Positions 35,994 through 50,731 of a stretch of 64,000 nucleotides of DNA are shown in pieces. A program made the translations under genes and the position numbers. This DNA is from Streptomyces turgidiscabies Car8. Lineage in GTDB: Bacteria > Actinomycetota > Actinomycetes > Streptomycetales > Streptomycetaceae. Under the pieces are notes generated by a model. It had not been told where the DNA came from and ran no database searches. It was given only the letters and a program-made list of their open reading frames with translations. The stretch is from positions 496,001-560,000 of the forward strand of contig NZ_AEJB01000361.1 in NCBI RefSeq assembly GCF_000331005.1, read 5' to 3'. The first letter of the stretch is position 1. Each line of letters begins with the position of its first letter.

Positions 35994-36347
35994 ATGCGAC
36001 TTCGTGCTCCCGCTCGAATTGCCGCCACGGCCATGCTTGCCCTGTCGGTGACCGCCGGCCTGGCCGCGACCACCGCCCCGGCCGCCACTGCGGCCGAGAT
36101 GCCGTGCAAGCCGCGCGTCTACTACGAGATCAACACCAACGCGGTGAACTTCAGGACGGGGCCGTCGACCGCCTACAAGTCCAAGGGCCTGCTCTACAAG
36201 GGCGACTGGGGCAAGAAGGTCGCCACCAAGGGCTCCTGGATCAAGCTCAAGCTCGGCCAGAAGTCCAGGACCGGGCTGGCCAAGAACACCACCGGCTGGG
36301 TCGCCAAGAAGTACGCCTACGACTGCGTCCCCATGCAGCTCGACTGA
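35994..36347 (+). CDS. Small secreted SH3b-like protein
   Basis: A 117-residue preprotein. A Sec signal peptide with Ala-rich core ends near ATTAPAATAA-EMPCK. The mature part is a single bacterial-SH3-like unit: NAVNFRTGPSTAYKSKGLLY, KGDWGKKVATKGSWIKL, closing with TTGWVAKKYAYDC. Two Cys (near mature N-terminus and near the end) may form a disulfide. SH3b modules bind cell-wall peptides or polymers, so an extracellular role is likely. A paralogue lies at 36599-36955. Confidence 0.75.
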   Translation: MRLRAPARIAATAMLALSVTAGLAATTAPAATAAEMPCKPRVYYEINTNAVNFRTGPSTAYKSKGLLYKGDWGKKVATKGSWIKLKLGQKSRTGLAKNTTGWVAKKYAYDCVPMQLD

Positions 36348-36598: not shown

Positions 36599-36955
36599 AT
36601 GATCCGCAATCTCGCCCTCCGGTCGGTTGCGCCCGCCGCCCTCGCACTCGCGGCCGCTGCCACCCTGACCGTGGCCTCCGCTCCCGCCGCGCACGCCGTC
36701 GGTGAGAACAGCAAGTGCACCGTCAACTGGCCGAACTACGGCGCCACCGTGGCCAAGGCCGGCTGGAACTACCGCACAGGCCCATCCACCGCTTACGCCA
36801 GCCGCGGCCTCCTGTACCGGGGCGACAAGTTGACCGTGCTGTGCAGCCGCGGCAACTGGGACTACAGCCAGCTCACCCAGCGCTCCAAGTCCGGCATCCC
36901 CAAGGGGACCCGAGGCTGGGTGCGCGACGACGGCCTCTACCAGCTGGCCGGCTGA
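36599..36955 (+). CDS. Small secreted SH3b-like protein, second copy
   Basis: A 118-residue preprotein with a signal peptide (ALRSVAPAALALAAAATLTV, cleavage after ASAPAAHA) and an SH3b-like mature domain (AGWNYRTGPSTAYASRGLLY, then RGDKLTVLCSRGNWDYSQLT and GTRGWVRDDGLYQL). It shares the RTGPSTAY.S.GLLY.GD core with the preceding gene, so the pair arose by duplication, but signal and flanks differ. GGAAGG lies about 12 bases before the ATG. The two Cys are conserved relative to the paralogue. Confidence 0.75.
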   Translation: MIRNLALRSVAPAALALAAAATLTVASAPAAHAVGENSKCTVNWPNYGATVAKAGWNYRTGPSTAYASRGLLYRGDKLTVLCSRGNWDYSQLTQRSKSGIPKGTRGWVRDDGLYQLAG

Positions 36956-37155: not shown

Positions 37156-38436
37156 GTGTCAGCCACCACCATGCCCGTCTCCTCCGCCAAGGACGCCGAA
37201 CCGTCCCGACCGCGGCCCTGGCCGCCGACGATCTGGGCACTGCTCGTCATCACCCTGGTGGCGCGCGGCTTCGGCTTCGCCTATCCCTTCCTCAGCTATC
37301 ACCTCAAGGACCTGGGCTACACCACCGCCGCTGTCGGCCAGGCCCTCGCGGTCTTCGGCATCGGATGGCTCGTCGGCCAGCTGCTCACCGGCTGGGCCGC
37401 CGACCGGCTCGGCCGGCGCCGCACCCTCGTGGCCGCCATGCTCACAGCCGCCGTCTGCCTGCCCGTGATGTCCCAGGCACACGCGTTCGCCGCCGTGTGC
37501 ACCGGAGCCCTGATCGCGGGCATCGTATACGACGCGCCGAGGCCGGTTGTCTCCGCGGCCATCGCCGACCTCATCGCCGACGACGGACAGCGCGCCGCCG
37601 TCAACGGCTGGCGCCACGGGGCCGTGAACATCGGCGCGGCGATCACGGGCGCGGTAGGCGGCCTGCTGGCCGGACAGCTTGGCTTCCCGGTGCTGTTCTG
37701 GTTCAACGCCGCCGCCTGCGCGGCCTGTGCCCTGCTCGCCCACCGCTACCTCGACGACGACACCCCGGCCGCCTCCGCCCGCCCCAGCGAGCCCGCCGCG
37801 CGCACCCCGCTGCGCTCGGCCGTGCGCGACGCCCGCCTGTGGCTGCTGTGGATGGCCAGTGTGGCCGCCCTGACCTGCGCTGCCGGCATGTTCACCGTGC
37901 TGCCGCTGCTGATGGAGGACGACGGGCTCGCCGCCGACGCCTACGGATGGACACAGGTCGCCAACGCCGGCGCCGTCGTCGTGCTCACCCCGCTGCTCAA
38001 CCCGTGGCTGCGGCGCCGCTGCGACGGGTCCCAGCCAGTCACCGGCCTGCTCGCCGTCGGATCGCTCCTGCTTGGCGCGGGCATGGGCAGCGCAGGCCTC
38101 GCCGACACCACGGCGGGCTACAGCCTCGCCGTGGCGGCGGCCGTCCCCGGGGAGATCGTCTTCTTCATCGCCGCCAACGACATCGTCACCAAGATCTCGC
38201 CCGTACACGCCCGTGGTCTGTACGCCGGGATCTGGGGTTCAACCCTCGCCGTCGCCGTGATCATCGCCCCGGTTCTCGCGGCCGTGTCCCTGACCTCGGG
38301 CGGTGGGGTTCTCGCCGCGCTTACCACCCTTGCCGCCGGTGCCATGGGCGCAGCCCTGTGCCTGCCGCTCGCGGGCCTCACCCAGCGCCGCACCGCCTCC
38401 CGTGTGACCGCCGTCCCTGTCCCCGCCGCTACCTGA
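37156..38436 (+). CDS. MFS transporter (1 of 4)
   Basis: A 426-residue major facilitator protein with about 12 TM helices. After a short cytosolic N-terminus comes helix 1 (TIWALLVITLVARGFGFAYP), and the loop 2-3 signature is AADRLGRRRTL. Helices continue to GAMGAALCLPLAGL. The GTG start at 37156 is the only reasonable one. Proton-driven efflux or uptake of a small molecule is expected; the substrate is unknown. It heads a co-directional run of cluster genes and differs in sequence from the paired MFS genes at 43523 and 46066. Confidence 0.8.
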   Translation: MSATTMPVSSAKDAEPSRPRPWPPTIWALLVITLVARGFGFAYPFLSYHLKDLGYTTAAVGQALAVFGIGWLVGQLLTGWAADRLGRRRTLVAAMLTAAVCLPVMSQAHAFAAVCTGALIAGIVYDAPRPVVSAAIADLIADDGQRAAVNGWRHGAVNIGAAITGAVGGLLAGQLGFPVLFWFNAAACAACALLAHRYLDDDTPAASARPSEPAARTPLRSAVRDARLWLLWMASVAALTCAAGMFTVLPLLMEDDGLAADAYGWTQVANAGAVVVLTPLLNPWLRRRCDGSQPVTGLLAVGSLLLGAGMGSAGLADTTAGYSLAVAAAVPGEIVFFIAANDIVTKISPVHARGLYAGIWGSTLAVAVIIAPVLAAVSLTSGGGVLAALTTLAAGAMGAALCLPLAGLTQRRTASRVTAVPVPAAT

Positions 38437-38458
38437 CCGCCGAACCGGAGAACCGGAC

Positions 38459-38561
38459 CATGAGACACAGCACCACATGCCCGAACTCGTGGGCAGCACT
38501 GCACAGATGGCCTCCTGTTTCGACAACCCGGCCCACGCCCGCGCCGGGGGCAGGCCGATGA
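38459..38561 (+). CDS. Small ORF coupled to the second MFS gene
   Basis: A 33-residue frame begins MRHSTTCPNSWAALHRWPPV and ends APGAGR at TGA 38559-38561, whose bases overlap the MFS ATG at 38558 (ATGA). Its ATG has a good SD context (CCGGAGAACCGGACC) very like that of the ATP-grasp gene at 40487. It could be a translational leader for the transporter or a small peptide product. Chance cannot be excluded in DNA this rich in GC. Confidence 0.35.
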
Positions 38562-39727
38562 CTGCGATCGCTCCGGCCGAGCAGTCCGCACCGCCGAGGG
38601 GCGACCGACGGCTGCTGCTCGGTGTCTTCGCCGTGATGGGCCTCGTCATGGCGGTCTGGGGCACGAGGATGCCCTCAGTGCAGAGGGTGGCCAACCTTGG
38701 GACGGGCCATCTGTCACTCGTTCTTCTCGGCGCCGCAGCCGGCATGGTCGCCGGGCTCCAGCTCGGCGGGCGCCTGGCCGACCGGCACGGTCCCTCCCGA
38801 CTGCTGGTCGTCCCCGCCGTCGTCTTCGGCCTCGCCCTGGCTCTCCTCGGCCAGTGCCGCACGCTGCCGACCCTGATCGCGGCTGCCGTCGTCTTCGGCT
38901 TCGCACACGGGCTGCTTGACGTCGGCTGCAACGTATCTGCCGTTCACTGCGAGATCGCCTTCCAGCGGTCGATCATGTCCGGGCTGCACGCCGCCTACTC
39001 GATCGGTGCTCTGTGCGGGGCCGCGCTCGCAGCCGTGACCACCTGGATGTCCCACGAGGTGCTGTTCGCGATGGTCGGTGCCTTCACGGTGCTCGCCGCT
39101 GCCACCGCCGTTCCGGCCGTACGAACGGCCACCTCCCTCGACCACGCACCCGAGCGTCCCGAAGCGGTTCCGGACGAGGCAAAGCCGGCGCAGACCTCCC
39201 ACACCAAGGTGTGGCTGCTCGGTGCCCTGGCCGCTGCGTGCCTGCTAGCCGAGGGCGCCGCCGCCGACTGGTCGGCAGTGCACCTGCACTCCCTCAACAG
39301 CTCCGAGGCAACAGCGGCGGCCGCCTACGCCCTCTACAGCGCCGCCATGGCCGTAGGCCGGCTCGCGGGCGACCGGCTGACCGGCCGCTACGGAGCACCC
39401 GCCCTGGTATGCGCCGGCGCCACCCTCGCCGCCGCCGGACTCGGCGCTGCACTGATCGCCGGCAGCGCCCCGGCCGCCCTGCTCGGCTGGATGGCCCTCG
39501 GAGCCGGCCTGTCCACGGCCATGCCGGCCCTCATCACAGCCGCCGGACGGGGAGGACCACGCGCCGTGGGCACCGTCGCCACCATCGGCTACCTCGGCCT
39601 GCTCGCCGGACCGGCCGCCATCGGGGCGATCGCCTCGTTCACCAGCCTGACCACCGCGCTGGCCCTGCTCGTCGTTCTGACCGCGACCGTCGCTGTCGTC
39701 TCCCACCGAGCCCTGGAGTCCCGTTGA
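38558..39727 (+). CDS. MFS transporter (2 of 4)
   Basis: A 389-residue (from 38558) MFS protein of about 12 TM helices: first helix LLLGVFAVMGLVMAVWG, then the N-domain signature GGRLADRHGPSRLLVVPA and VVFGFAHGLLDVGCNVSAVH, a pattern like fucose/DHA1-type permeases that lack a long central loop. I prefer ATG 38558 because of the overlap with the small ORF; an in-frame ATG at 38477 has no SD. The stop overlaps the TTG of the HAD gene, so the two are coupled. The substrate is unknown. Confidence 0.8.
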   Translation: MTAIAPAEQSAPPRGDRRLLLGVFAVMGLVMAVWGTRMPSVQRVANLGTGHLSLVLLGAAAGMVAGLQLGGRLADRHGPSRLLVVPAVVFGLALALLGQCRTLPTLIAAAVVFGFAHGLLDVGCNVSAVHCEIAFQRSIMSGLHAAYSIGALCGAALAAVTTWMSHEVLFAMVGAFTVLAAATAVPAVRTATSLDHAPERPEAVPDEAKPAQTSHTKVWLLGALAAACLLAEGAAADWSAVHLHSLNSSEATAAAAYALYSAAMAVGRLAGDRLTGRYGAPALVCAGATLAAAGLGAALIAGSAPAALLGWMALGAGLSTAMPALITAAGRGGPRAVGTVATIGYLGLLAGPAAIGAIASFTSLTTALALLVVLTATVAVVSHRALESR

Positions 39728-40416
39728 CCTCTTCCCAGCCCACCACCCCCAGCGGCGCCGGCCTCGAGGCCGTGATCCTCGACTACAACGGGGTCATCGG
39801 CCGCCAGCCCGGCCCGCCCCAGTGGGCCCGGCTCGCCGAACTCGCGGGCTGGCACCCCCAGGAGACCCACGCCTTCCAACAGTCCTTCTGGCAGCGGCGG
39901 GAGCCCTACGACCAGGGCACCGCCACCACCCACACGTTCTGGAGCGGACTGCTGCGCAACGGGTGCACCGCGCCTGCGGGCAGCACCCTCCTGGCCGCCC
40001 TCGCAAGCGCCGACCTCGGCATGTGGACCGCCACGGACCCCGCCGTGCTGGACCTCCTGCACACAGCCCACGCCACCGGGCTGCGCCTCGTACTCCTGTC
40101 CAACGCGCCCAAGCCGCTGGCAAACGCCCTCGACGACGCCGAATGGTGCGCCACCTTGTTCAGCCGGACCGTCTACTCCGCCCGCATCGGAGTGAACAAG
40201 CCCCACAAACGGGCCTACGAGGCCGCGCTCGAGGCCGCCGGAAGGCCCCACCCCGCAAAGACCCTGTTCGTCGACGACCGGCTGGACAACGTCGAAGCCG
40301 CCGAGCAGCTCGGCCTGCAGGGCCTGCACTACACCGGCGACCCGGCCGCACTCGCCCGCCGGCTTCCCCGGCCGCCCGCCGTCACACGCCCGGGCGTCCT
40401 CGCTACGAGCGCATGA
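39724..40416 (+). CDS. HAD-superfamily hydrolase
   Basis: A 230-residue cytosolic phosphatase-like enzyme. Motif I is VILDYNGVIG (nucleophile Asp; the general-acid position is Asn as in DxGNV-type HAD phosphatases), motif II LVLLSNAPK, motif III Lys in RIGVNKPHKRAYEAAL, motif IV LFVDDRLDNVEAA. A helical cap lies between motifs I and II. The TTG start overlaps the MFS stop (TTGA). In this cluster it would be suited to dephosphorylating a biosynthetic intermediate. Confidence 0.8.
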   Translation: MTSSQPTTPSGAGLEAVILDYNGVIGRQPGPPQWARLAELAGWHPQETHAFQQSFWQRREPYDQGTATTHTFWSGLLRNGCTAPAGSTLLAALASADLGMWTATDPAVLDLLHTAHATGLRLVLLSNAPKPLANALDDAEWCATLFSRTVYSARIGVNKPHKRAYEAALEAAGRPHPAKTLFVDDRLDNVEAAEQLGLQGLHYTGDPAALARRLPRPPAVTRPGVLATSA

Positions 40417-40486
40417 CCGCCCTCGCGACGCCGTCTCACCGGACCGGCACCCGCCGCATCCCGATCACCGAACCGGAGATCCGACC

Positions 40487-41794
40487 ATGAGTCTGACCGC
40501 CCTGCGCCCCAACTCCCGTGCCGTGACAAGCACATGGCACTCCTCGGGATCACCGCTGCTCGTCCTCATCGGCGCTGGAAGCCGCATCTGGCGCGGATAC
40601 GGACTGCAGCACATCGCCGCCCGCCACCGCGTCGCCCTCCTCGACGAGCAACCTCCCGCCTGGGCCAACGACCACGCGGCTGTCTCCATGGCCGTCGACC
40701 TGGCGGACACCGAGGCCGTCGCCCAGGCCGTTGCCGCGCTGGCCGCTGACCAGGGCGTTTCCGGGGTGCTCACCTACATGGAGCAGCACGTGGCCCTCAC
40801 CGCCCGGATCGCGGAGCGGTTCATGCTGCCCGGCAACACCCCCAGCGCCGTCGAGGCTTGCCGGGACAAGTACCTCAGCCGCTCCCTGCTCGCCGCGGCC
40901 AACGTGCCCTCGGCCCGCTCCTACCTCGTCCCGGACGCCGAGACCGCCGTCGAGTACGCGGTTCTCCTGGGCGGCCCTGTCGTCCTCAAGCCGCGGTCGA
41001 TGGGCGGCAGCGCCGGCGTGCGCCGCGCCGACACGGCCGATCAAGTCCGCGACGCCTACCAGGCGGCCCGCGGCGCGACCCTCTTCGGGCTGGAGAACAC
41101 CGGGACCGGGGGCGTGCTGATCGAGGAGTACCTCGATGGTCCGGAGATCAGCGTGGAGTGCGTCGTCCTGGGCCACGAGACCGTCCACATCGCCGCGATC
41201 ACCCGCAAGTATCTCGGCGACGAACCGGACTTCCAGGAGACCGGCCACCTCGTCGACACCACCGACCCTCTCCTGGCCGACCCCCGCATCCACGAGGTGG
41301 CCCTCGCTGCCCTGAACACGGTCGGCATCACGTGCGGTGTCATGCACGTCGAGATGCGCCTGACCCAGCAGGGCCCGCGCATCGTCGAGATCAATGCCCG
41401 GCTCGGCGGAGACCTCATCCCGCACTTGGTCCACCTGGCCACCGGCCTCAATCTGCCGCAGATCGCGGCCGACCTCGCCGTCGGCGCCGACCCCGAGCTG
41501 GTCCCCAGCTGGCACCAGAGCGCCGCCGTCCGCTTCCTCTACCCGCCCGTCACCGGTCACGTCACGGCACGGCACACCGGCGTGTTCGCCGCCTGGCTCG
41601 ACCGTTTCGAGTGGATCGCCGCACCCCGCAGCCACGTCAACGCTCCGCCCCGCGCCACGCTGCTGGACCGTCTGGCACTGGCCGTGGTCACCGGGCCCGA
41701 CCCCGACACCTGCCACCGGCGACTGCAGCTGGTCGAAGAACGCAGCGGCATCCACATCCAGCCCGACAACGCCACCACCGCCTGCGTCGCCTGA
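40487..41794 (+). CDS. ATP-grasp ligase, intact active site
   Basis: A 435-residue ATP-grasp enzyme of the carboxylate-amine ligase type, activating a carboxylate as acyl phosphate and joining it to an amine. It has an N-terminal Rossmann-like domain (PLLVLIGAGSRIWRGYGLQH), the ATP-binding lysines in GGPVVLKPRSMGGSAGVRR, the central VLIEEYLDGPEISVECVVLG, and the Mg-binding end VEINARLGGDLIPHLVHLAT. It resembles L-amino-acid/dipeptide ligases and phosphoribosylglycinamide-synthetase relatives. The SD GGAGATCC precedes ATG 40487. It is a central enzyme for assembly of the cluster product. Confidence 0.85.
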   Translation: MSLTALRPNSRAVTSTWHSSGSPLLVLIGAGSRIWRGYGLQHIAARHRVALLDEQPPAWANDHAAVSMAVDLADTEAVAQAVAALAADQGVSGVLTYMEQHVALTARIAERFMLPGNTPSAVEACRDKYLSRSLLAAANVPSARSYLVPDAETAVEYAVLLGGPVVLKPRSMGGSAGVRRADTADQVRDAYQAARGATLFGLENTGTGGVLIEEYLDGPEISVECVVLGHETVHIAAITRKYLGDEPDFQETGHLVDTTDPLLADPRIHEVALAALNTVGITCGVMHVEMRLTQQGPRIVEINARLGGDLIPHLVHLATGLNLPQIAADLAVGADPELVPSWHQSAAVRFLYPPVTGHVTARHTGVFAAWLDRFEWIAAPRSHVNAPPRATLLDRLALAVVTGPDPDTCHRRLQLVEERSGIHIQPDNATTACVA

Positions 41795-41829
41795 CCCGCA
41801 CGGCACCGATACACACAGGAGACCCGACC

Positions 41830-43077
41830 ATGGCCCTCGCCGCACCCCTCCACGCGGCGGCCGCGCCCGCGTACCGCACCGGCACCGCCGCCGTCATCGC
41901 TCCCGCTGATGCCGGCGACCGGTACGTGCCCGCGCTGGCCCGGCACGGCTGGAACTCCGTCGCGGTCACCGAACCCGCTCACCATCCGGACGACAACACC
42001 GGCTACTTCCGGCACGTCACCCACCGCACGAGCCTGCGCCGCACCGCCGCCCACCTCGACCGCCTCGGAGTCCAAGCCGTCCTCGCCGGCTCACCAGCCG
42101 GTACCGAACTCGCCGACCTGCTCGCCGCCCGACTCCACCTGCCTGGCAACGCCCTCGACACCGCGGACATCCGCCGCGATGCCGGTCTCACCAGCGCAGC
42201 GCTACTCGACGCGGGTATCACCGCGCCCCGCAGCATCCGCACGGCCCGCCTCTCCAACGCCCTCGAATGGGCCACCTACACGCAGAAAGCCGAACTCGTC
42301 CTCCAGCACCCCGACCCCACCCACCCCCACCCTTCCTCCGTCTGCCGCACCGAAGACGACATCCGCTTCGCCTGGCACCGCCTCCACCACTCCAGCACCC
42401 AGCCGCTGGTCCTGCGCGAGCACCTCGCCGGCACCCACTACCGCATCCACACCCTCACTAGCCCTGGCCCCGACGGATCCACCGACCACAGCATTACCGC
42501 GATCTGGTCCGAGACCCGCACTGCCGACCAACAGGTATGCCGCGCCGACCTCCTGAGCCGCCACGGGCTCCTGGCCCGCGCCCTGGCCCTCTACACGATG
42601 CGCGCGCTCACTGCCCTCGGCGTCCGCTACGGCCCCGCCCACGCCACGGTCACCTTCATCCCCGACCGTGGACCCGCCCTGCTGTCCCTGCGTACCGACC
42701 CCTACGCAGACTTCGCCACCGACGTGCTGCGCCAGGCCACCGGCCACGACCCCATCCGTGACACCGCGCTGCTGCTCACCACCGGCAGCCGCCCCGCGGC
42801 CCGCCACCGACCCCACGCCCACGTCACGAAGATCGCCCTGCTGCCGCGGCACGACGGCGCACTGGATCACGCTCTGCTGCGCACCATCACCGCGCTGCCC
42901 ACCGTCGCCGCCACCACCGAGCTCACCGCCGACACCCCGGTGCGAGCCGACGAGACCACGGGATGGCTCCTCCTTGTCGCGGACGACAGCCGCGCTATCA
43001 ACCAAGACCACCAGGTCATCCGAGCCGCCGAGAACCTCGGCCTGTACGGGAGGCCGGTATGCACTCGCCCCTCATGA
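41830..43077 (+). CDS. ATP-grasp-like protein, degenerate active site
   Basis: A 415-residue protein with the layout of an ATP-grasp ligase: N-terminal alpha/beta part (YRTGTAAVIAPADAGDRYVP), a middle segment LPGNALDTADIRRDAGLTSA like the substrate loop of the family, VLREHLAGTHYRIHTLTS in the place of the EEY...E strand, and FIPDRGPALLSLRTDPYADF where active members have an E-x-(N/G)-x-R Mg site. The acidic ligands are missing, so it may be a non-catalytic partner or use a different chemistry. ATG 41830 follows CAGGAGACC. The stop overlaps the next gene. Confidence 0.65.
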   Translation: MALAAPLHAAAAPAYRTGTAAVIAPADAGDRYVPALARHGWNSVAVTEPAHHPDDNTGYFRHVTHRTSLRRTAAHLDRLGVQAVLAGSPAGTELADLLAARLHLPGNALDTADIRRDAGLTSAALLDAGITAPRSIRTARLSNALEWATYTQKAELVLQHPDPTHPHPSSVCRTEDDIRFAWHRLHHSSTQPLVLREHLAGTHYRIHTLTSPGPDGSTDHSITAIWSETRTADQQVCRADLLSRHGLLARALALYTMRALTALGVRYGPAHATVTFIPDRGPALLSLRTDPYADFATDVLRQATGHDPIRDTALLLTTGSRPAARHRPHAHVTKIALLPRHDGALDHALLRTITALPTVAATTELTADTPVRADETTGWLLLVADDSRAINQDHQVIRAAENLGLYGRPVCTRPS

Positions 43078-43421
43078 CCGTCCCGCCTTCGGCCTCGCGG
43101 GTCCAGGCCGCTTGCCAGGGCCTCCCCAATCTGTTCGCGGTGGTGGTTGTCGACCCCCTGCCCCTGTGGAGCGCACCGCAGGCGGGGCGGACTCTGCCCG
43201 AACGCAACCGCGAAGGCCATGACTTGCTGGTCCTGCGCTGGCACGGCCCCCCGGACATCGACGCCGAGGTCCTCACCGCCCTCGAATCGGCCGCCGACCG
43301 GGCACCGACCCCGCCCGTGAGCACCGCCGAACTCGCCCACTACCAGGACTCTCTCCCCGACCACCTGCACCTGGTGGCCGTTCCGGCCAGCAGCGTCCTC
43401 GGCCCCTGGTCCCACAGCTGA
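43059..43421 (+). CDS. Hypothetical protein in the ATP-grasp operon
   Basis: A 120-residue soluble protein. ATG 43059 has an ideal SD (GGGAGG five bases upstream) and lies inside the end of the ATP-grasp-like gene; ATG 43074 overlapping its stop (ATGA) is the alternative. It contains LPNLFAVVVVDPLPLWS, DLLVLRWHGPPDIDAEVLTA and ends HLHLVAVPASSVLGPW. No domain recognised. Tight coupling implies it works with the degenerate ATP-grasp protein. Confidence 0.6.
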   Translation: MHSPLMTVPPSASRVQAACQGLPNLFAVVVVDPLPLWSAPQAGRTLPERNREGHDLLVLRWHGPPDIDAEVLTALESAADRAPTPPVSTAELAHYQDSLPDHLHLVAVPASSVLGPWSHS

Positions 43422-43522
43422 CAAGCCAGTCAGCCCCCCGGCGCCGGGCCGAAGGAGCCCGTCCGCCCCCCACCTGGATCCCTTCCTTCCCGGTGCCATC
43501 CCATCAGTCCTCAGGAGACCCT

Positions 43523-44749
43523 GTGCAGACCGCCCCCGCCAAGGCCGACAGGCCACTGCGCGCTGTCACCTATCGCAGCGTGCTGCGGGTGCCCCATGCC
43601 GCCCGGCTGCTGATCGGCACGCTTATAGGACGCCTGCCATCGGGAATGGCGCCCCTCGCCATCGTCCTGATCGGCACCGAGAACGGCGGGTTGCAGACGG
43701 GGAGCGGACTGGCTGCCGTGTACTTGCTGGCCAACGCCGTGGGCGGGCCCTTGCTCGGCCGCCTGGTCGACCGGCACGGGCAGACAGGAGTGCTGACGAC
43801 GAGCGCGGCCACCGCGGCCGCCGGACTCCTTCTGCTCACGGCGGACGGCGCCTCATGGGGGGTCGTGCTTACAGCGGTGGCCCTGGCCGGACTGGCCAAG
43901 CCCCCGCTCGACGCGACGTTGCGTGCCTTGTGGAGCCCACTGATGCCGGACCGCGAGCACGAGCGGGTCGCTGTCTCTTTGGACGCCGCCGTGCAAGAGT
44001 TGATCTTCATCGTCGGGCCCTTGCTGGTGGCCGCCCTGGCCTACACGTCGTCGGCTCGCTGGGCCGTGGTGGCGACGGCAGCTGTCGGGTTGGCGGGCAC
44101 GCTCCTAGTCGTCACCGCACCCCCGTCGCGGTCGTGGACGGCGCAGCCTCGCGAAGTGGACTGGCTGGGCCCGCTGCGGTCTCAGCAACTGCGCGTTCTC
44201 TACACGGCCATGCTGTTCATCGGCGTACCCATGGGGGCCCTCACTCCGCTCGCGGTCACCTTCGCCGACCAGTTCCAGTACGCCGGTCTATCGGGCGCAC
44301 TGCCCGCCGCCGTCTCCGCCGGTGCCCTGGTCGGCGGGCTCCTGTACGGGGCACGCTCGTGGCCCGGCCCGACGGCAGTGCATCTGGTGGTCCTCTGCGC
44401 TGGCTTCGCGACGGGCTGGATCCCCCTGTTGGCGGCTGGGAACTCCCTTCTCGCGGTCGCGGCGTGCTTGCTCCCGGGCCTCGTCATGGCCCCGTTGCTC
44501 AGCGCGGCCTATCTCCTCACCGTCCGCTTGGCGCCGGCCGGCACGGTCACCGAGGCAAGCGCCGTGCTGGTTGCGGCTCTCGACCTCGGATGCGCCGTGG
44601 GCACCGGGGCCGCAGGACTCTCCTTCGCCCGCGTGCTCCTGCCGGCTGGCGGGGCCGCGGCCCTCGTCGTGCTCTGGGCCGCCCGCGGACTGAGACGTCC
44701 TCGGGTCCTTCCCCCCGCCGTCGCCGAACCCCAGCACGTGACCACGTGA
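43523..44749 (+). CDS. MFS transporter (3 of 4)
   Basis: A 408-residue MFS protein. It opens YRSVLRVPHAARLLIGTLIG and has GPLLGRLVDRHGQTGVL as loop 2-3 signature, in close parallel with the transporter at 46066 (LRLPYAARLLTATLVSRLP; QPLLGRLVDRRGQTRTL), so these two are paralogues. GTG 43523 has CAGGAGACCCT upstream. About 12 hydrophobic helices. It lies just before the methyltransferase gene; the substrate is probably an intermediate or product of the cluster. Confidence 0.8.
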   Translation: MQTAPAKADRPLRAVTYRSVLRVPHAARLLIGTLIGRLPSGMAPLAIVLIGTENGGLQTGSGLAAVYLLANAVGGPLLGRLVDRHGQTGVLTTSAATAAAGLLLLTADGASWGVVLTAVALAGLAKPPLDATLRALWSPLMPDREHERVAVSLDAAVQELIFIVGPLLVAALAYTSSARWAVVATAAVGLAGTLLVVTAPPSRSWTAQPREVDWLGPLRSQQLRVLYTAMLFIGVPMGALTPLAVTFADQFQYAGLSGALPAAVSAGALVGGLLYGARSWPGPTAVHLVVLCAGFATGWIPLLAAGNSLLAVAACLLPGLVMAPLLSAAYLLTVRLAPAGTVTEASAVLVAALDLGCAVGTGAAGLSFARVLLPAGGAAALVVLWAARGLRRPRVLPPAVAEPQHVTT

Positions 44750-44795
44750 ACACCGTCCCCATCCGCGCCACCTCACTTGTTTAAAGGACTTCGCG

Positions 44796-45788
44796 ATGAC
44801 CGCACCCGCTCTGCCCGCCGTGACCTCGCCCGCACCGGATCACCTTGCTGAACTGCGCACAGACGTCGTACGGGGGTTCGCCGCGTCCCCGAAACAGCTC
44901 TCGCCGAAGTGGCTGTATGACGCGGACGGGACCCGGCTGTTCGACGAGATCACCCGGCTGCCGGAGTACTACCCGTTCAGGACGGAGCAGGCGATCATCG
45001 CCGACTCCTGCACCACCATCGCCTGGCTCACCTGCGCCAGAACCTTGATCGAGCTGGGTTCCGGTTCGTGCTCGGCCAAGACACGTCTGCTGCTCGATGC
45101 CCTGAGCGGCCCGCTCACCACCTACGTGCCGGTCGACGTGAGCTCCAGCGCCCTGGCCCAGGCCTCAGCCTCCATCGCGGCGGAGTACCCCGGCCTGACG
45201 GTGAAACCCCTCCTTGCCGACTTCACGGCCGCGGTCGACCTTCCGCCCACCGACGGGCCCCGCCTGTTCGCCTTCCTCGGCGGGACCTTCGGCAACTTCC
45301 TTCCCCCCGAGCAAGCGGCATTCCTGGCCACCCTCACCTCCCGCCTGGCCCCCGGCGACCGCCTGCTCCTCGGCGTGGACCTGGTCAAGGACCCAGCCGT
45401 CATCATTCGCGCCTACAACGACGCTGCAGGCGTGACCGCCCGGTTCAATCTCGGCCTGCTGCATCGCCTCAATCGGGAACTGGACGCCGACTTCGACGTG
45501 GCCGCCTTCGAGCACGTGGCCGTCTGGGACGCGGACCACAAGTGGATCGAGATGCGTCTGCGGTCCCGCCGGGACCAGACCGTCACCCTGCGCGGTGTCG
45601 ACCTGGTCGTGCCCTTCGCCGCGGGAGAGGAACTGCGCACCGAGGTCAGCGCAAAGTTCCATCCTCACGGCCTTGCCGCGCAGCTCAACGCCGCTGGCCT
45701 GGAGCTGAGCCACTGGTGGACCGACCCCGCCCGCCTCTACGGACTGGCCATGATCGCACGCGCCGACGACATCACCCCGGCGGCCTGA
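44796..45788 (+). CDS. egtD: EgtD-type L-histidine N-alpha-methyltransferase
   Basis: A 330-residue SAM-dependent methyltransferase of the EgtD family, which makes hercynine (trimethylhistidine) in ergothioneine synthesis. Key features: LSPKWLYDADGTRLFDEITR, LPEYYPFR (substrate Tyr), SAM motif LIELGSGSCSAKTRLLLDAL, GGTFGNFLP (substrate Asn), RAYNDAAGVTARFN (Tyr), WIEMRLR and LRTEVSAKFHP. The Glu-x-Ser and Met positions known to select histidine in the mycobacterial enzyme are all kept, so histidine is the likely substrate. No EgtB, EgtC or EgtA is nearby, so this may be a second copy dedicated to the cluster product. AAAGGACTTCGCG precedes the ATG. Confidence 0.85.
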   Translation: MTAPALPAVTSPAPDHLAELRTDVVRGFAASPKQLSPKWLYDADGTRLFDEITRLPEYYPFRTEQAIIADSCTTIAWLTCARTLIELGSGSCSAKTRLLLDALSGPLTTYVPVDVSSSALAQASASIAAEYPGLTVKPLLADFTAAVDLPPTDGPRLFAFLGGTFGNFLPPEQAAFLATLTSRLAPGDRLLLGVDLVKDPAVIIRAYNDAAGVTARFNLGLLHRLNRELDADFDVAAFEHVAVWDADHKWIEMRLRSRRDQTVTLRGVDLVVPFAAGEELRTEVSAKFHPHGLAAQLNAAGLELSHWWTDPARLYGLAMIARADDITPAA

Positions 45789-45856
45789 TGCCCGTCTCCG
45801 CCGATCCCTCGCACACATCCACCCGGCGTCGGGCTTTCCATGTCAACCGAAGGACG

Positions 45857-46069
45857 ATGATGCGCCCCACCGACGGCTCAGCGCACGCTGCATGCGCCCT
45901 CGCGTGCCCGGGCGCGCACGCCCTTCCGTCCCTCGGCCACCCGACGCAGGCCCACGTGCCTGTTCGTCGGCCCGCGCCCATCGGCGATGAGTCACGGACC
46001 GCCGAGGCGAATGACCACGGCAGCCGGACCCGGCGGCACACGAGTCTGCACCGCGGAGCGCACACATGA
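45857..46069 (+). CDS. Small ORF coupled to the fourth MFS gene
   Basis: A 70-residue frame from ATG 45857 (or 45860), with GAAGGACG just upstream, to TGA 46067-46069, which overlaps the MFS ATG at 46066. The peptide begins MMRPTDGSAHAACALACPGA and is rich in His, Ala, Pro and Arg. Like the 38459 ORF it sits directly before a transporter with ATGA coupling. No domain recognised; it may be a leader for coupled translation or a genuine small product. Confidence 0.35.
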   Translation: MMRPTDGSAHAACALACPGAHALPSLGHPTQAHVPVRRPAPIGDESRTAEANDHGSRTRRHTSLHRGAHT

Positions 46070-47334
46070 GCGCGGTCGACACACCCCCCGCCCCCATCGT
46101 CCGCGCCGCGCCGACGCACCACACCCAGCAGCGCCCCGTGCACTGGGGCACCGTGCTGCGGCTGCCGTACGCAGCGCGCCTGTTGACCGCCACGCTCGTG
46201 AGCCGGTTGCCGCTGGGCATGACGCCTGTCGCGCTGCTGATCGCTGCGCGGGCGAACGGCCACGGATACGGCGTTGGGGCTGCGCTCGCCTCCCTGTACG
46301 GGCTCGCGGTAGCGGTCGGGCAGCCGCTGCTCGGCCGCCTGGTCGACCGGCGGGGACAGACCCGCACACTCATGGCCGGCGCGATCACGTCGGCGGCCGC
46401 ACTCCTCATCCTTGCGGCCGCCGAAACGCTCAACCTGCTGATTGCAGCCGCCGCCGTCGCCGTCGCGGGAGCAACAGCCCCGCCGATGGAGGGGGTCCTG
46501 AGGGCACTGTGGCCCGCGATCACCCCCACGCGGCGGCATTTGCGTGCGGCGCTGGCCCTCGACAGCGGAAGCCAGGAACTTGTCTACGCCGCCGGTCCTC
46601 TCACCGCTGTCGCCGCTGCAGCGGTGGCACCGCCCGGCCTCACCTTCGCCGTGGCCGCCGGCCTCGGGCTGGGAGGGGCTCTCGCCGTCGCGGCATCGGC
46701 TCCTTCCCGCAGGTGGCGACCCGCGCAAGTGCGAAGCGGAGCCCTCGGTGCCCTGCGCTCGGTCGGCATGCGATGGATGCTGCTCGTCCTCACCGTGGTC
46801 GGCGGGACACTCGGCGCGCTGTCGGTGGCCGCCCTGACCGCGAGCGAACGGCATTCCGCTCAGTGGCTGGCAGGCGTCCTGCCCGCCGGGGTGTCGATCG
46901 GTGCGCTCCTGGGGACCGCCGCCTGGACCGCGCTGCCGCTGCCCGCTTCCCTCAGCAGGCAACTCGCGTTGACCGCCGCAGTATTCGCGGCCGTCTGGGT
47001 GCCGCTGAGCCTCGACCCGCCACCGTTCGCCGCCCTCGCGCTGACGGTGCCGCCCGGCATGGCCTTCGGAGCGCTGCTGACGTGCGCGTATCAGGTGGTC
47101 GCAGAGCTTGCCCCGCCCGGCACGCTCATCGAGGCGTACGGCTGGCTCATCGCAGCCTTCGGGCTGGGCCAGTCCCTGGGGACAGCGGCCGCCGGCGTGC
47201 TCGAGGGCCCCTGGGCCCTCCCGGCAGGCACGGCCACGCTCGCCCTCGTCCTCTCCGCCCCAGTCTGCCGGCGCCTCGCGGTGCGCACGGCAGCCGCCCC
47301 TTCCCCTTGCCCGTCGCCCGAGAGGCCGTCATGA
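46066..47334 (+). CDS. MFS transporter (4 of 4)
   Basis: A 422-residue MFS protein, paralogous to the one at 43523. TM helices include TPVALLIAARANG, ALASLYGLAVAVG, AALLILAAAETLNLLIAAAA and FGALLTCAYQVVAELAPPG; the late segment LIEAYGWLIAAFGLGQSLGT resembles the corresponding T/EA...LVAALDLG part of its sister. The stop overlaps the trpA-like ATG (ATGA), coupling transport and the lyase. The substrate is unknown. Confidence 0.8.
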   Translation: MSAVDTPPAPIVRAAPTHHTQQRPVHWGTVLRLPYAARLLTATLVSRLPLGMTPVALLIAARANGHGYGVGAALASLYGLAVAVGQPLLGRLVDRRGQTRTLMAGAITSAAALLILAAAETLNLLIAAAAVAVAGATAPPMEGVLRALWPAITPTRRHLRAALALDSGSQELVYAAGPLTAVAAAAVAPPGLTFAVAAGLGLGGALAVAASAPSRRWRPAQVRSGALGALRSVGMRWMLLVLTVVGGTLGALSVAALTASERHSAQWLAGVLPAGVSIGALLGTAAWTALPLPASLSRQLALTAAVFAAVWVPLSLDPPPFAALALTVPPGMAFGALLTCAYQVVAELAPPGTLIEAYGWLIAAFGLGQSLGTAAAGVLEGPWALPAGTATLALVLSAPVCRRLAVRTAAAPSPCPSPERPS

Positions 47335-48170
47335 ACAACTCCACGTCGCCGTCCTGGCCGCCCGCCGACCGCCTCGACCGGGCCCTTGCCGTCAGCCACG
47401 CGAAGGGGCGGGCCGCGCTCGGCCTCTACCTGCCACTCGGCTACCCCACCCCCACAGCCAGCCTGGACGCGCTGCATTCGATGGCCCAGTCCGCCGACGT
47501 GCTGGAGATCGGCGTCCCGCACCACGACCCGGTCATGGACGGCCCCCTGATCCGGGAAGCCTCCGCCCAGGCACTGGCCGCTGGCTTCCAGATGCACGAT
47601 GTCTTCACGGCCACATCCGAACTGACTGCGTCCACACCTGCCGCGCTGCTGGTCATGTCGTACTGGGCCCCGATCGCGCAGTACGGCATCGAGCCCTTTG
47701 CGCGTCGGCTGGCCGCTGCGGGCGGCGCGGGGGTACTCATCCCTGACCTTCCCCCGCCAGCGGCGGAGGCATGGAGAGCAGCAGCAGCCTCGGCCGGCCT
47801 GCACACCATCCCCCTCATCCAGTCCCGCGCCTCCACGGCACAACTGGCGGCGATCGGCGCTTCCCACAGCGGCATGGTCTACGCCCCCGCGACCCCCGGC
47901 CTCACGGGCTCCCAACACCCGCTCAGCCCCGACCTGCCGAGGCTGGTCCACCGCCTGCGCACCACAACCCACCTGCCGGTCGCGGTCGGCATCGGCATCA
48001 GCACACCGGGCCAGGCCGCACAGGCGTCCGCGTACGCGGACGCCGTCGTGGTCGGCTCGGCTGTCATCCGGCGCATGCGAGACGAGCCCAACACGCCCGC
48101 CACCGCCGCCGACGAGATCGCTCGCGACTTCGCCGCCGGAGTCCGCCGCGCCCGGCGCTCCGCAGCCTGA
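47331..48170 (+). CDS. trpA: Tryptophan synthase alpha-type lyase
   Basis: A 279-residue TIM-barrel protein of the TrpA family, cleaving indole-3-glycerol phosphate to indole and glyceraldehyde 3-phosphate. Both catalytic acids are present: Glu in DVLEIGVPHHDP and Asp in VMDGPLIRE. The phosphate-binding parts VAVGIGISTPGQAAQ and VVVGSAVIRRM are intact. There is no trpB or other trp gene here, so it may act alone as an indole-releasing lyase for secondary metabolism, as known for plant BX1/IGL, or be an extra copy of the primary gene. ATGA overlap with the MFS gene. The normal length is 265-280 residues. Confidence 0.85.
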   Translation: MNNSTSPSWPPADRLDRALAVSHAKGRAALGLYLPLGYPTPTASLDALHSMAQSADVLEIGVPHHDPVMDGPLIREASAQALAAGFQMHDVFTATSELTASTPAALLVMSYWAPIAQYGIEPFARRLAAAGGAGVLIPDLPPPAAEAWRAAAASAGLHTIPLIQSRASTAQLAAIGASHSGMVYAPATPGLTGSQHPLSPDLPRLVHRLRTTTHLPVAVGIGISTPGQAAQASAYADAVVVGSAVIRRMRDEPNTPATAADEIARDFAAGVRRARRSAA

Positions 48171-48201: not shown

Positions 48202-48828
48202 ATGCCCCATTCCTCGACCTCGATCCCGCGCCCGCGCCCGCGCCACCTGACCGTGCTCGCCGTCGGCGTCGCCACGGCCCTCACCCTCACCGCCTGCGGC
48301 GCACACTCGGACACCGGCGCGACCAGGGAGAAATCTGCCTCGACGACCAGCGCGGGCAAAGAGAAGACGACGTTCAAGCTGGGTGAGGCCAGCCCGGTCC
48401 AAGAGAGCCAGATGCAGCGCTCCCGAGGGGCCACCCACACGATCACGCCCACCAAGGTGGTCGTCGGCAGCAAGGCCGACATGGACAACTCCGGGCTTGA
48501 GCAGGACAAGGAAGACGGCCCCCAGGTGCCCGTGTACGTCTGGTCGACGCTCACCCACAAGAGCGGCAAGCCGATGGCGCTGGGCGACATGGATGACGAT
48601 CTGGTTGTCAGAACGGATACAGGCCAGCGCACCCGCGCCCTCATCGTGCTGCTCGGCCAGGCGCAGTGGCCCAACTGCCCGGCGTTCGACTCCGACAAGA
48701 AGCTCGTCGCAGGCCAGTCGCAGCGCATTTGCACCGCCTTCCTCATCCCACAGGGCCAGAAGGCCGCCGCAGTCCAGCTCAGCCAGGGCTTCTACAGCAA
48801 GCCCCTGGAGTGGCCCGTGAAGAGCTGA
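48202..48828 (+). CDS. Lipoprotein
   Basis: A 208-residue precursor with Arg/Pro-rich n-region, hydrophobic core (HLTVLAVGVATALTLTAC) and a lipobox LTAC at the cleavage site, so it is tethered outside the membrane. The mature part after a Ser/Thr linker is a beta-sandwich-like domain (VPVYVWSTLTHKSGKPMALG; TRALIVLLGQAQWPNCPAF; QRICTAFLIPQGQKAA), similar in style to DUF4352-type exported proteins. GGAGGAACCACC precedes the ATG. It is followed by another lipoprotein gene whose N-terminus is similar (TACGPGSDTG against TACGAHSDTG). Confidence 0.75.
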   Translation: MPHSSTSIPRPRPRHLTVLAVGVATALTLTACGAHSDTGATREKSASTTSAGKEKTTFKLGEASPVQESQMQRSRGATHTITPTKVVVGSKADMDNSGLEQDKEDGPQVPVYVWSTLTHKSGKPMALGDMDDDLVVRTDTGQRTRALIVLLGQAQWPNCPAFDSDKKLVAGQSQRICTAFLIPQGQKAAAVQLSQGFYSKPLEWPVKS

Positions 48829-48963: not shown

Positions 48964-49962
48964 ATGCCCTCCCCCCAACAGCACCCGTCCCCACCCCGTA
49001 TGCGTGCCGGTGCCGCAGCCCTGGGCGCAGCGGCGGCGCTGTGTCTCACCGCCTGTGGACCAGGCTCGGACACCGGCTCGGCCCCCACCTCGAGCGCGAG
49101 CCCCGCTCCGAAGGGGGTCGTCGACCACAAGACTGCCGGGTCCATCCTCGACCACTACCAGGAGATCAACAACAAGGCGAACAAGACGCGCGACGCGAGC
49201 CTCCTCTCCACCGTGGAAGCCGGCCAGCTCTACGCCCGCAGCAAGGCCGACTATGAGCAGTTCGACACCCTGAGCGCGAAGGAGAAGAAGGACTACGGCA
49301 CCCCGTTCTACTTCACCCGGCGCTCCTTCTACATCCCGCCCACCGGCAACTGGTTCGCGGCCGAGGCCTCCACCAACGGCACGAACCACACATTCATGAT
49401 CTTCGAGAAGTCCGCCGACACCGGCGGCACCTGGAAGAAGGTCATCTCCCTGTTCCCGCAGCAACCGCTCCCGACCCCCCGGACCAAGCGCGGCCTGGCC
49501 GTCCCCGCCGACGCGGACACCCCGGTCGGCAGCCTCGCACCCAGCGGCGTCACCATCGCCGTCGAAGACCTCTTCGCCAGCGGCGGCACCAAGGACGGCA
49601 GCAAACTCTCCCACGCCAACGACAACGCCAAGGCCATCCTCAAGACCTACAAGGAACGCGGCGACCACCTCGGGTCCCAAGCCACGGTGAACTTCTTCCC
49701 GATCACGCCGACCCACGACAAGACCTACACCCTGACCACCTCCTCCGGCGTCCTGGCGATCACCTCTCTCGCCCACAAGGCAGAGACCCTCGTCACCAAC
49801 GCCGGCCTGCAGATCACCCCCGGCAAGACCGAGTCGGTCTACAACAAGACGCCACGTGCCGTGGTGGTGAACAGCTTCCAGGGCGAGGCCGTCGTCCACC
49901 TGCCCCGCCACGGCAAGCCCGAGATCCTCGACTACCGCTACGCCCTGGTCGACTCCCGCTGA
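48964..49962 (+). CDS. Lipoprotein
   Basis: A 332-residue precursor: signal peptide with lipobox (ALGAAAALCLTAC), Ser/Pro linker, and an exported domain of about 290 residues (VVDHKTAGSILDHYQEINNK ... FYFTRRSFYIPPTGNWF). The text contains TFMIFEKSADTGGTWKKV, a pattern found in Streptomyces lipoproteins of unknown role that look like extended NTF2/DUF8094-type folds. I prefer ATG 48964 with CAGGAG upstream over GTG 48955. Probable function at the cell surface; related to its neighbour only in the signal region. Confidence 0.75.
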   Translation: MPSPQQHPSPPRMRAGAAALGAAAALCLTACGPGSDTGSAPTSSASPAPKGVVDHKTAGSILDHYQEINNKANKTRDASLLSTVEAGQLYARSKADYEQFDTLSAKEKKDYGTPFYFTRRSFYIPPTGNWFAAEASTNGTNHTFMIFEKSADTGGTWKKVISLFPQQPLPTPRTKRGLAVPADADTPVGSLAPSGVTIAVEDLFASGGTKDGSKLSHANDNAKAILKTYKERGDHLGSQATVNFFPITPTHDKTYTLTTSSGVLAITSLAHKAETLVTNAGLQITPGKTESVYNKTPRAVVVNSFQGEAVVHLPRHGKPEILDYRYALVDSR

Positions 49963-50005: not shown

Positions 50006-50731
50006 ATGCCCCTGGGCCCGTCACTCACCGCCGACATCCACGAGACGATCATCGTCCTTCCCGGCGGCGGCATCCACGCCCAGGGGCTGCGGCAAGACGG
50101 CCACCCCGACCAGGCCGAGGCCCTCATCGAGCGCGTCCGCGGCCCCCTGCGCGCCGCGGCCCAGCGACACGGCCGACCGATCCTGCTGTCCATCGGCCAC
50201 CCCTACGGGCACATCGACCAGCAGCAGATCGCCGCCGACGGCACGGTTCACCTCGGCCAGGACCCGCCCGCCAACACCCAGCCCGTCGACCCGATATGGA
50301 ACCAGGGCATCCCCGAGGACACCGGCCTGCTCGAGACCCCGCGCGCAGCTCAGCGCGCGGGGCACTGGCGTGCCGCACAACAGGCCGCCCACCGCGCCAC
50401 CCAGCACCTCATCGCCCGCCACGGCCACGACCACCCGTACGCAGCGATGGGCACCGAACTCCAGGCGTACTTCGCCGTGATGGCCCAGGACCGCGCCGCC
50501 GCTGCCTCTCTCTACACCGAGGCCGCCGTCGCGATACACCGGCTCGGCGGCCCGCCAGAACAAAGCCGCCGCACCCTGGTGAACGCCATCGCCGCCTGGC
50601 TCCACTCCGACCGCGACACCAGCCCCGGCGGAGCAGGCTTCGCCGCCGCCCACGCACTGATCCGCATCACCCCCTACGACCACACCACCCTCGCAGCCCT
50701 GCTGCACCGACTGACCAGGGACCGCGCATGA
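50006..50731 (+). CDS. Hypothetical protein
   Basis: A 241-residue soluble protein, beginning MPLGPSLTADIHETIIVLPG with an alpha/beta N-terminal half (GRPILLSIGHPYGHIDQQQI). The C-terminal half is a helical, TPR-like array (HWRAAQQAAHRATQHLIARH; FAVMAQDRAAAASLYTEAAV). GAGGAAGACCACC precedes the ATG. The TPR-like half suggests partner binding, as in the accessory genes of Streptomyces regulators. Its stop overlaps the next ATG (ATGA). Confidence 0.65.
   Translation: MPLGPSLTADIHETIIVLPGGGIHAQGLRQDGHPDQAEALIERVRGPLRAAAQRHGRPILLSIGHPYGHIDQQQIAADGTVHLGQDPPANTQPVDPIWNQGIPEDTGLLETPRAAQRAGHWRAAQQAAHRATQHLIARHGHDHPYAAMGTELQAYFAVMAQDRAAAASLYTEAAVAIHRLGGPPEQSRRTLVNAIAAWLHSDRDTSPGGAGFAAAHALIRITPYDHTTLAALLHRLTRDRA

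Follow-up and report, generated by a model that had tools for sequence, protein, structure and literature searches.

The gene run at positions 37156-48170 of the window (the whole stretch of DNA analysed, 64,000 nucleotides from Streptomyces turgidiscabies Car8) can tentatively be read, with somewhat less than even confidence, as an island of small-molecule enzyme-plus-transporter modules, probably plasmid-borne and subject to recombination, that would release hercynine, indole and the product of a ligase, probably a dipeptide. On other plasmids, related loci combine these genes differently and exchange them, so that the set looks like an exchangeable kit for several small molecules, and not like an assembly line for one product. 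The region itself probably lies on a large Streptomyces plasmid.

The four MFS genes and the genes of a HAD hydrolase, an ATP-grasp protein, EgtD and TrpA, which an earlier note had reported here, are all present, belong to the families assigned to them and lie on the plus strand. The description of these genes as mostly coupled by overlapping stop and start codons was overstated: there are overlaps at three of the nine gene junctions (MFS2/HAD, 4 bp; ORF 41830/ORF 43059, 19 bp; MFS4/TrpA, 4 bp) and gaps of about 35-280 bp at the remaining six. Two genes had gone unnamed, another one of the ATP-grasp fold (41830-43077) and a small conserved ORF (43059-43421), and the syntenic unit extends beyond 37156-48170, to SH3 secreted-protein genes (36033, 36599) on one side and lipoprotein-like genes (48202, 48964) and ORF 50006 on the other. 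The features are as follows.

36033..36347, plus strand: small secreted protein, weak bacterial SH3 domain (SH3_3, 26.2 bits, just under the cut-off of 27)
36599..36955, plus strand: small secreted protein, bacterial SH3 domain (29.9 bits, cut-off 27)
37156..38436, plus strand: MFS transporter 1, MFS1 (MFS_1, 146 bits)
38558..39727, plus strand: MFS transporter 2, MFS2; its stop overlaps the HAD start by 4 bp; longest ORF from 38477
39724..40416, plus strand: HAD-IA hydrolase; TTG start; motif I DYNGV
40487..41794, plus strand: ATP-grasp ligase GR1; catalytic residues intact
41830..43077, plus strand: GR2, pseudo-ATP-grasp protein (ATP-grasp fold); ATP lysine and metal ligands missing
43059..43421, plus strand: conserved small ORF, 120 aa; 19-bp overlap with GR2; no family match
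43493..44749, plus strand: MFS transporter 3, MFS3, directly upstream of EgtD
44796..45788, plus strand: EgtD-type histidine N-alpha-methyltransferase (TIGR03438, 352.3 bits, cut-off 290.9); full histidine pocket
46066..47334, plus strand: MFS transporter 4, MFS4; its stop overlaps the TrpA start by 4 bp
47331..48170, plus strand: TrpA-like indole-3-glycerol-phosphate lyase; keeps Glu49 and Asp60, has Ala in place of Asn104
48202..48828, plus strand: putative lipoprotein, judged from the protein start; no family match; syntenic in L038 and L047
48964..49962, plus strand: SCO2278-like lipoprotein (weak match, 33.7 bits, far under the cut-off of 210)
50006..50731, plus strand: ORF without assigned function; syntenic in L038, L039 and L047
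41000..47330, no strand: central block from the second half of GR1 to the end of MFS4; 73-95% identity to L067/L068 in 500-bp bins, flanks 95-100%

Genes similar to the SH3-type gene 36033..36347 adjoin many relatives, and the SCO2278-like gene 48964..49962 adjoins the cluster in several of them.

The gene set is conserved in other Streptomyces, with a near-complete syntenic copy on a named plasmid of Streptomyces sp. NBC_00582. Against this copy dN/dS is 0.17 for EgtD, 0.23 for TrpA and 0.25 for the ATP-grasp gene, and thus the set is more than a chance grouping. Likeness to G131/L066 was set aside as proof of conservation, since sequences 96-100% identical in bins say little; the informative relatives are L047, L069 and L039. 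In the comparison with L047, dN/dS is 0.17-0.33 for nine genes of the stretch and 0.56 for the tenth, HAD, so that most of them are under purifying selection. As the earlier note had supposed, no description of the set was found in the literature, among the matches listed.

The same genome carries a canonical egt locus (L045, contig C369), a canonical trp locus (L046, contig C610) and a second, diverged copy of the gene set. The note had named absence of conservation, or EgtD and TrpA being the only copies and serving primary metabolism, as grounds for dropping its proposal; neither holds, given the separate canonical loci and the second copy. A role in primary metabolism was rejected in view of the canonical loci elsewhere, and the island EgtD and TrpA are supported as accessory paralogues outside it.

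Adjacency of enzyme and transporter genes was scored with gene tables made by tblastn with a fixed query set, because the gene caller had overlooked some genes in relatives and also MFS4 in the window; "directly upstream" here means that, within 400 bp on the same strand, no other family of the query set lies closer. MFS2 is directly upstream of HAD in all matches (20/20), and an MFS gene precedes non-canonical EgtD in 16/18 (that is, 17/21 matches without L073, a duplicate of L042, and the egtB-linked L147 and L149; L038, a duplicate of L066, is omitted). An EgtD-led plasmid search gave 10 places in nine of the 10 Streptomyces records examined and yielded eight non-canonical EgtD loci, with MFS directly upstream in six and no GR1/GR2-type gene within 7 kb in three. 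The coupling is found in only 10 of 30 matches for TrpA and in only 8 of 29 for GR1 (a count that leaves out L081-L145).

EgtD of the window exceeds the curated whole-protein cut-off and, as claimed, keeps its histidine-selecting residues: 10/10 match M. smegmatis EgtD at the positions that we take to form the pocket (Y39, F47, Y56, G161, T163, N166, Y206, M252, E282, S284), and position 207, next to Y206, is Asn instead of Asp. The pocket is complete in 15 of 18 sequences. The reported lack of egt partners also stands, as the EgtB query has no match beside EgtD (among the tabulated loci it matches only L045, L147 and L149) and EgtA and EgtC are absent among the genes called. Thus, the protein shares its pocket with the EgtD of the egtABCD ergothioneine pathway, but differs in lying behind an MFS gene, without adjoining EgtB, and outside the clade formed by six egtB-linked or chromosomal sequences (support 0.96). 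The MFS3-EgtD module would convert histidine to hercynine.

TrpA retains both catalytic acids, Glu49 and Asp60, and lacks a neighbouring TrpB, both as the note had stated; the TrpB query had no match in 115 island and relative loci, the window included. Asn104, presumably a contact to TrpB, is missing from 22 of 24 intact plasmid-type copies (kept in two) and from none of 29 copies beside TrpB, while these plasmid-type copies keep Asp60 in 24/24 and Glu49 in 22/24 (lost in L079 and L152). Stand-alone indole-3-glycerol-phosphate lyases, namely maize BX1/IGL and C. glutamicum TrpA alone, which yields indole without TrpB according to PMC9100643, likewise have the TrpA fold, both acids and no adjoining TrpB. 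The island type differs in comprising plasmid-type actinobacterial copies with changes at position 104, and by sequence it is closer to mycobacterial TrpA than to BX1. The MFS4-TrpA module is a candidate that would turn indole-3-glycerol phosphate into indole without TrpB. The gene is broken or cut in L037, L049, L066 and L068; the indels in L066 and L068 may be sequencing errors, both being drafts, and the cut copy in L037 and the split one in L049, whose plasmid record is marked complete, are harder to dismiss as mere noise.

The HAD protein passes both family cut-offs (Pfam Hydrolase, 44.9 bits against 26.4; TIGR01509, 51.4 against 29.4). Its motif I keeps the first Asp and has Asn at the second position, hence lacking the second Asp of DxD; some HAD enzymes vary at this position, and DYNGV recurs in L128 and L135. 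Together with MFS2 it would form a module acting on some phosphorylated substrate.

GR1 keeps 6/6 checked positions (the ATP lysine and metal-binding residues), and its best solved match by sequence is BL00235 (3vot), BacD being weaker. In GR2 the catalytic positions are changed (Lys to Gln, Glu to Thr, Glu to Ser), the predicted structure (mean pLDDT 85.5) has the L-amino acid ligase 3vot as the top PDB fold match and BacD as the fourth, and the family match is to PRK07206/DdaF-like ligases (dapdiamide synthase, 30vh L-amino acid ligase; 124.7 bits, under the cut-off of 302). Unlike those ligases, most GR2 copies lack the ATP lysine: it is lost in 18/21 distinct sequences compared, the window's included, and kept in L054, L037 and L130. 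GR1, with the catalytically dead GR2 as a presumed partner and with ORF 43059 (broken in L068), might join amino acids or similar units, and we take MFS1, three genes upstream in the window, as its putative transporter.

Bacilysin synthesis, with the L-amino acid ligase BacD and the MFS protein BacE, and the BL00235-type ligases likewise combine an ATP-grasp ligase and MFS genes in one gene run. The island differs in its plasmid setting, in having no anticapsin-type gene among the identified genes and in adding a pseudo-ATP-grasp protein, EgtD, TrpA, HAD and further MFS. BacE is a presumed exporter, and by analogy the island MFS proteins would export the module products. Indole passes membranes unaided and hence requires no exporter, which counts against export for the TrpA module.

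If the genes formed a single pathway, they should be inherited together. Genes do separate in relatives: MFS-EgtD pairs occur without a GR1/GR2-type gene within 7 kb (L150, L151), EgtD occurs alone (L148), and the stretches examined include EgtD without TrpA (L040, L041, L042, L059, L146) and TrpA without EgtD (L039, L048, L050, L053, L062, L063). Yet EgtD co-diverges not only with its own MFS (Spearman 0.60, 15 loci), but also with GR1 (0.65, 12 loci) and TrpA (0.81, eight loci). The divergence of TrpA is correlated more strongly with its own MFS (0.71) than with GR1 (0.46), GR2 (0.23) or MFS1 (0.11), and that of HAD with MFS2 (0.94) and GR1 (0.79, six loci); as 6-15 related loci were used, the permutation values are non-independent tests, and the EgtD-GR1, EgtD-TrpA and HAD-GR1 correlations also fit joint inheritance.

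These observations bear on the proposal of a single product with a hercynine and/or indole unit joined through an amide bond, in which a histidine-derived unit, hercynine or another, would be ligated by the ATP-grasp enzyme to a second amino acid and then exported, TrpA giving indole or a side product. The co-divergence speaks for it, as do GR1 or GR2 at 15/18 non-canonical EgtD loci, many of which were found using GR1/GR2 queries, and a histidine theme suggested by histidine decarboxylase in islands of this type (L048, L062, L063, L067). The separation of the genes does not bear it out, including L150 and L151 and the occurrence of EgtD and TrpA without each other, nor does broken TrpA next to intact EgtD and GR1 in the drafts L066 and L068; moreover, hercynine could serve as the carboxyl partner only, as its trimethylated amine is not open to acylation. 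The single product has partial support at most, and we regard a single pathway as unlikely, though an EgtD-to-ligase step in this cluster is conceivable. Of much the same low likelihood is a plasmid-borne recombining kit for chemical communication, in which one-enzyme/one-exporter modules would make signal-like hercynine, indole and, in sister islands, histamine or cytokinin-type prenylated adenine, with the dead ATP-grasp protein as a partner of the active ligase.

The ligase product could instead be a small antibiotic or antimetabolite serving plasmid maintenance or competition, with GR2 and MFS for self-protection and the other genes adjusting the product. BacD is among the solved relatives, the island centre is swapped between near-identical haplotypes as in arms-race loci, and among the best 80 of 541 loci kept from a genome-wide search with the GR1 alignment, an MFS family lies near GR1 in 55, and 16 have a TraG/T4SS-type coupling protein there. 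No gene for toxicity, a target or immunity was identified, and we consider this reading improbable. Still less credence goes to two other readings. MFS-enzyme coupling would equally suit uptake of neighbours' small molecules followed by modification or detoxification, and the four MFS proteins differ, none matching a curated NCBIfam transporter family over its cut-off among the matches listed; import is needless, however, for EgtD, which uses histidine, and for TrpA, whose substrate is an internal phosphorylated intermediate. Equally remote is dosage, with extra EgtD and TrpA raising chromosomal ergothioneine and tryptophan output: the pocket is full and the canonical loci could use the products, but TrpA has lost the Asn104 present in all 29 TrpB-linked copies, EgtD falls outside the canonical clade, and the MFS coupling would be left unexplained.

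If the modular island is the correct reading, it would add bacterial stand-alone indole-3-glycerol-phosphate lyases that form a group borne on plasmids, a setting where hercynine is an end product and not an ergothioneine intermediate, and a clear example of small-molecule genes traded piecewise among near-identical haplotypes. It also cautions against a natural misreading, as neighbouring genes on a plasmid may make separate products.

In the window and L047, no regulatory word common to the regions before the module starts rose above random segments of the same loci, and a repeat search gave two- and three-copy families only. The near-identical haplotypes of the window and L067/L068 are distinguished by a replaced block of ~6.3 kb; in the flanking genes MFS2, HAD and TrpA, dN/dS against L067 and L068 is 0.6-2.5, mostly with too few changes to mean much. 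In the comparison with L047, the first ~20 codons of GR1 correspond to the beginning of a GNAT gene, which the window lacks.

Every gene of the island lies on the + strand, in the order MFS1, MFS2, HAD hydrolase, GR1, GR2, a 120-aa ORF, MFS3, EgtD, MFS4 and a TrpA-like gene (MFS1-MFS4, MFS transporter genes). An earlier note was right about the genes it named and about their common direction, but missed GR2, a second ATP-grasp-fold protein; it also described the genes as mostly coupled by overlapping stop and start codons, while such overlap occurs at only three of the nine junctions (MFS2/HAD, GR2/ORF 43059 and MFS4/TrpA).

37156-48170, + strand, the island
40487-41794, + strand, GR1, ATP-grasp ligase
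41830-43077, + strand, GR2, ATP-grasp-fold protein
43059-43421, + strand, ORF 43059
16006-18381, bacterial topoisomerase gene, flanking the island at a distance
55069-57141, large serine recombinase gene, flanking the island at a distance
8187-9194, - strand, matches genes annotated as glycerol-3-phosphate dehydrogenase in at least 13 Streptomyces/Embleya plasmid records (77-86% DNA identity), another housekeeping-like enzyme on plasmids

The same note proposed a single product with a hercynine and/or indole unit joined by an ATP-grasp amide bond. Enzyme-plus-transporter modules fit the data better, as HAD, EgtD and often TrpA adjoin an MFS gene of their own, genes have been gained and lost separately, and Asn104 of TrpA has been lost. 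For each match, we scored the nearest upstream gene of a query-set family on the same strand within 400 bp. MFS2 directly precedes HAD in all 20 matches, overlapping it in each by the estimate used. An MFS gene stands directly before EgtD in 17 of 21 matches, or in 16 of 18 after a duplicate contig (L073) and two egtB-linked matches (L147, L149) are dropped; the exceptions are L056, where an isopentenyl transferase gene precedes EgtD, and L148. The upstream neighbour of TrpA (n = 30) is an MFS gene in ten matches, GR1 or GR2 in six and an SH3 gene in four; the remaining matches comprise three second fragments of a broken TrpA and seven with no query-set family within 400 bp upstream. GR1 is preceded by MFS in 8 of 29 matches (L081-L145 left out) and by HAD in the window. 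Among the further GR1 relatives (L081-L145, 65 loci from the best 80 of 541 GR1 matches), GR1-type genes often adjoin an MFS gene, some loci lie near a TraG/T4SS coupling protein, and the MFS2-HAD pair occurs in 12.

As many loci had been collected via GR1 or GR2 queries, plasmids were also searched with EgtD alone (52 records, ten of them Streptomyces, nine of these examined, the second NBC_01237 copy being left out). This yielded ten places, two of them egtB-linked; six of the other eight have MFS directly upstream, and at three of the eight (L148, L150, L151) there is no GR1/GR2-type gene within 7 kb. Thus, the MFS-EgtD pair exists without a ligase. Export would be the simpler direction of transport, since EgtD and TrpA act on internal substrates.

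The correlations of divergence count against the module reading. For EgtD they are 0.81 with TrpA (8 loci), 0.65 with GR1 (12 loci) and 0.60 with its own MFS (15 loci), and weaker with MFS1 (0.49, 13 loci) and GR2 (0.35, 14 loci). The MFS is not singled out as the partner of EgtD, hence ligation of hercynine within this cluster is possible. TrpA correlates with its own MFS at 0.71 (10 loci), with GR1 at 0.46, GR2 at 0.23 and MFS1 at 0.11; HAD, with MFS2 at 0.94 (8 loci) and with GR1 at 0.79 (6 loci). In the literature searched, no description of this gene combination was found by titles or abstract openings among the matches listed.

All ten histidine-pocket residues checked are kept in the EgtD of the window, and the pocket is complete in 15 of 18 non-canonical EgtD copies, the exceptions being L047 (F47Y), L077 (E282G) and L148 (Y206F, E282K). 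The last of these, a second plasmid EgtD of NBC_00445 (L148, 6947-7984), may accept another amino acid. The ATP lysine and metal ligands are intact in the GR1 of the window and gone in its GR2. The GR2 lysine is missing in 18 of 21 distinct sequences from two alignments (A1 and A3) and kept in L037, L054 and L130; isolated other ligands persist in some loci (L049, L057). The predicted GR2 structure has the ATP-grasp fold (mean pLDDT 85.5), with the L-amino acid ligase 3vot as the top match. Motif I of HAD reads DYNGV, which makes a phosphatase role uncertain.

Intact copies of the plasmid-type TrpA keep Asp60 (24/24) and mostly Glu49 (22/24), and only two of the 24 have Asn104, which we take to be a contact site for TrpB; Asn104 is present in 29 of 29 TrpA copies with an adjacent TrpB. 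The set of 24 excludes cut or broken copies (L037, L038/L066, L049, L068) and matches shorter than 600 bp, among which we count that of L129. In L066 (16844-17681) and L068 (17076-17914), both draft sequences, TrpA has differing small frame-breaking gaps, due to either decay or sequencing error. A term search of one review (PMC9512447) gave no mention of Asn104 as a TrpB contact. C. glutamicum TrpA yields indole without TrpB (PMC9100643), which by analogy makes a stand-alone TrpA lyase in the island credible, without being proof for the TrpA of the window. In L051, L060, L061 and L064 the plasmid TrpA follows a small SH3-type gene, with MFS, ATP-grasp and EgtD genes not directly adjoining; in the first three, a DNA ligase gene is nearby and a GNAT gene is next downstream.

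In L047 an intact GNAT gene separates HAD from GR1, and its start is matched by the first ~20 codons of the window GR1, as would be expected if a deletion had fused the two genes; the fused start is also seen in L066, L067 and L068. Compared with L067 and L068 (500-bp bins; 100-bp bins were also run), identity is 95-100% in the window flanks and 73-95% in the block between the middle of GR1 and the end of MFS4 (~41.0-47.3 kb); by this identity profile, the central block is a replacement. Genes for histidine decarboxylase and a DUF6875 protein lie in the L067 block and are lacking from the window and L068; sister islands carry an isopentenyl transferase (L056) or PLP enzymes (L049, L055). In L056 (1083-3646, NBC_00445 plasmid) the isopentenyl transferase is of the cytokinin type (PF01745), and both it and a fusion of a PLP decarboxylase with DUF6875 adjoin EgtD.

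Substitutions relative to L047 indicate purifying selection on most island genes, dN/dS being 0.17 for EgtD, 0.19 for MFS3, 0.23 for MFS1 and TrpA, 0.25 for GR1, 0.27 for MFS2, 0.28 for GR2, 0.31 for ORF 43059, 0.33 for MFS4 and 0.56 for HAD. Relative to L067/L068, flanking genes give 0.2-2.6 from very few changes, and TrpA relative to L068 gives 0.63 from a partial alignment.

Streptomyces sp. NBC_00582 carries a near-complete syntenic copy (L047) on a linear plasmid of 353 kb, and more relatives are found on Streptomyces plasmids. In close relatives synteny extends beyond the island, upstream to genes for secreted SH3-domain proteins and downstream to lipoprotein-like genes. The window's contig (C359) is itself probably a plasmid: Streptomyces sp. 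NBC_01454 has a 639-kb plasmid that 43% of window bases 8000-32900 match with 94% identity. The island is accessory: a GR2 relative (E<=0.001) occurs in at least 93 of 295 Streptomyces genomes, a lower bound as six candidates were scored for each genome, and relatives more than 70% identical occur in only four of the 295, the window's own included. Multiple TrpA rows were seen in 10 of 101 genomes and multiple EgtD rows in five; of these five, one (G010) has a single EgtD gene split in two, and another (G011) has a partial second row.

The genome of the window has a canonical egt locus on contig C369 (L045) with EgtB and EgtD matched, where two neighbours are putatively EgtA and EgtC by position and sequence; for trp, the canonical locus is on contig C610 (L046) and includes both TrpA and TrpB. 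The set occurs once more, in diverged form, ~217 kb away on the window's own contig (L037), with identities of 78% for MFS1, 93% for MFS2, 89% for HAD, 56% for MFS3, 57% for EgtD and 41% for GR2; in this copy TrpA is reduced to a fragment, and GR1 is absent. The set is thus conserved elsewhere and its EgtD and TrpA are not the sole copies and stand outside primary metabolism, so neither of the two outcomes that the earlier note held against its own proposal applies.
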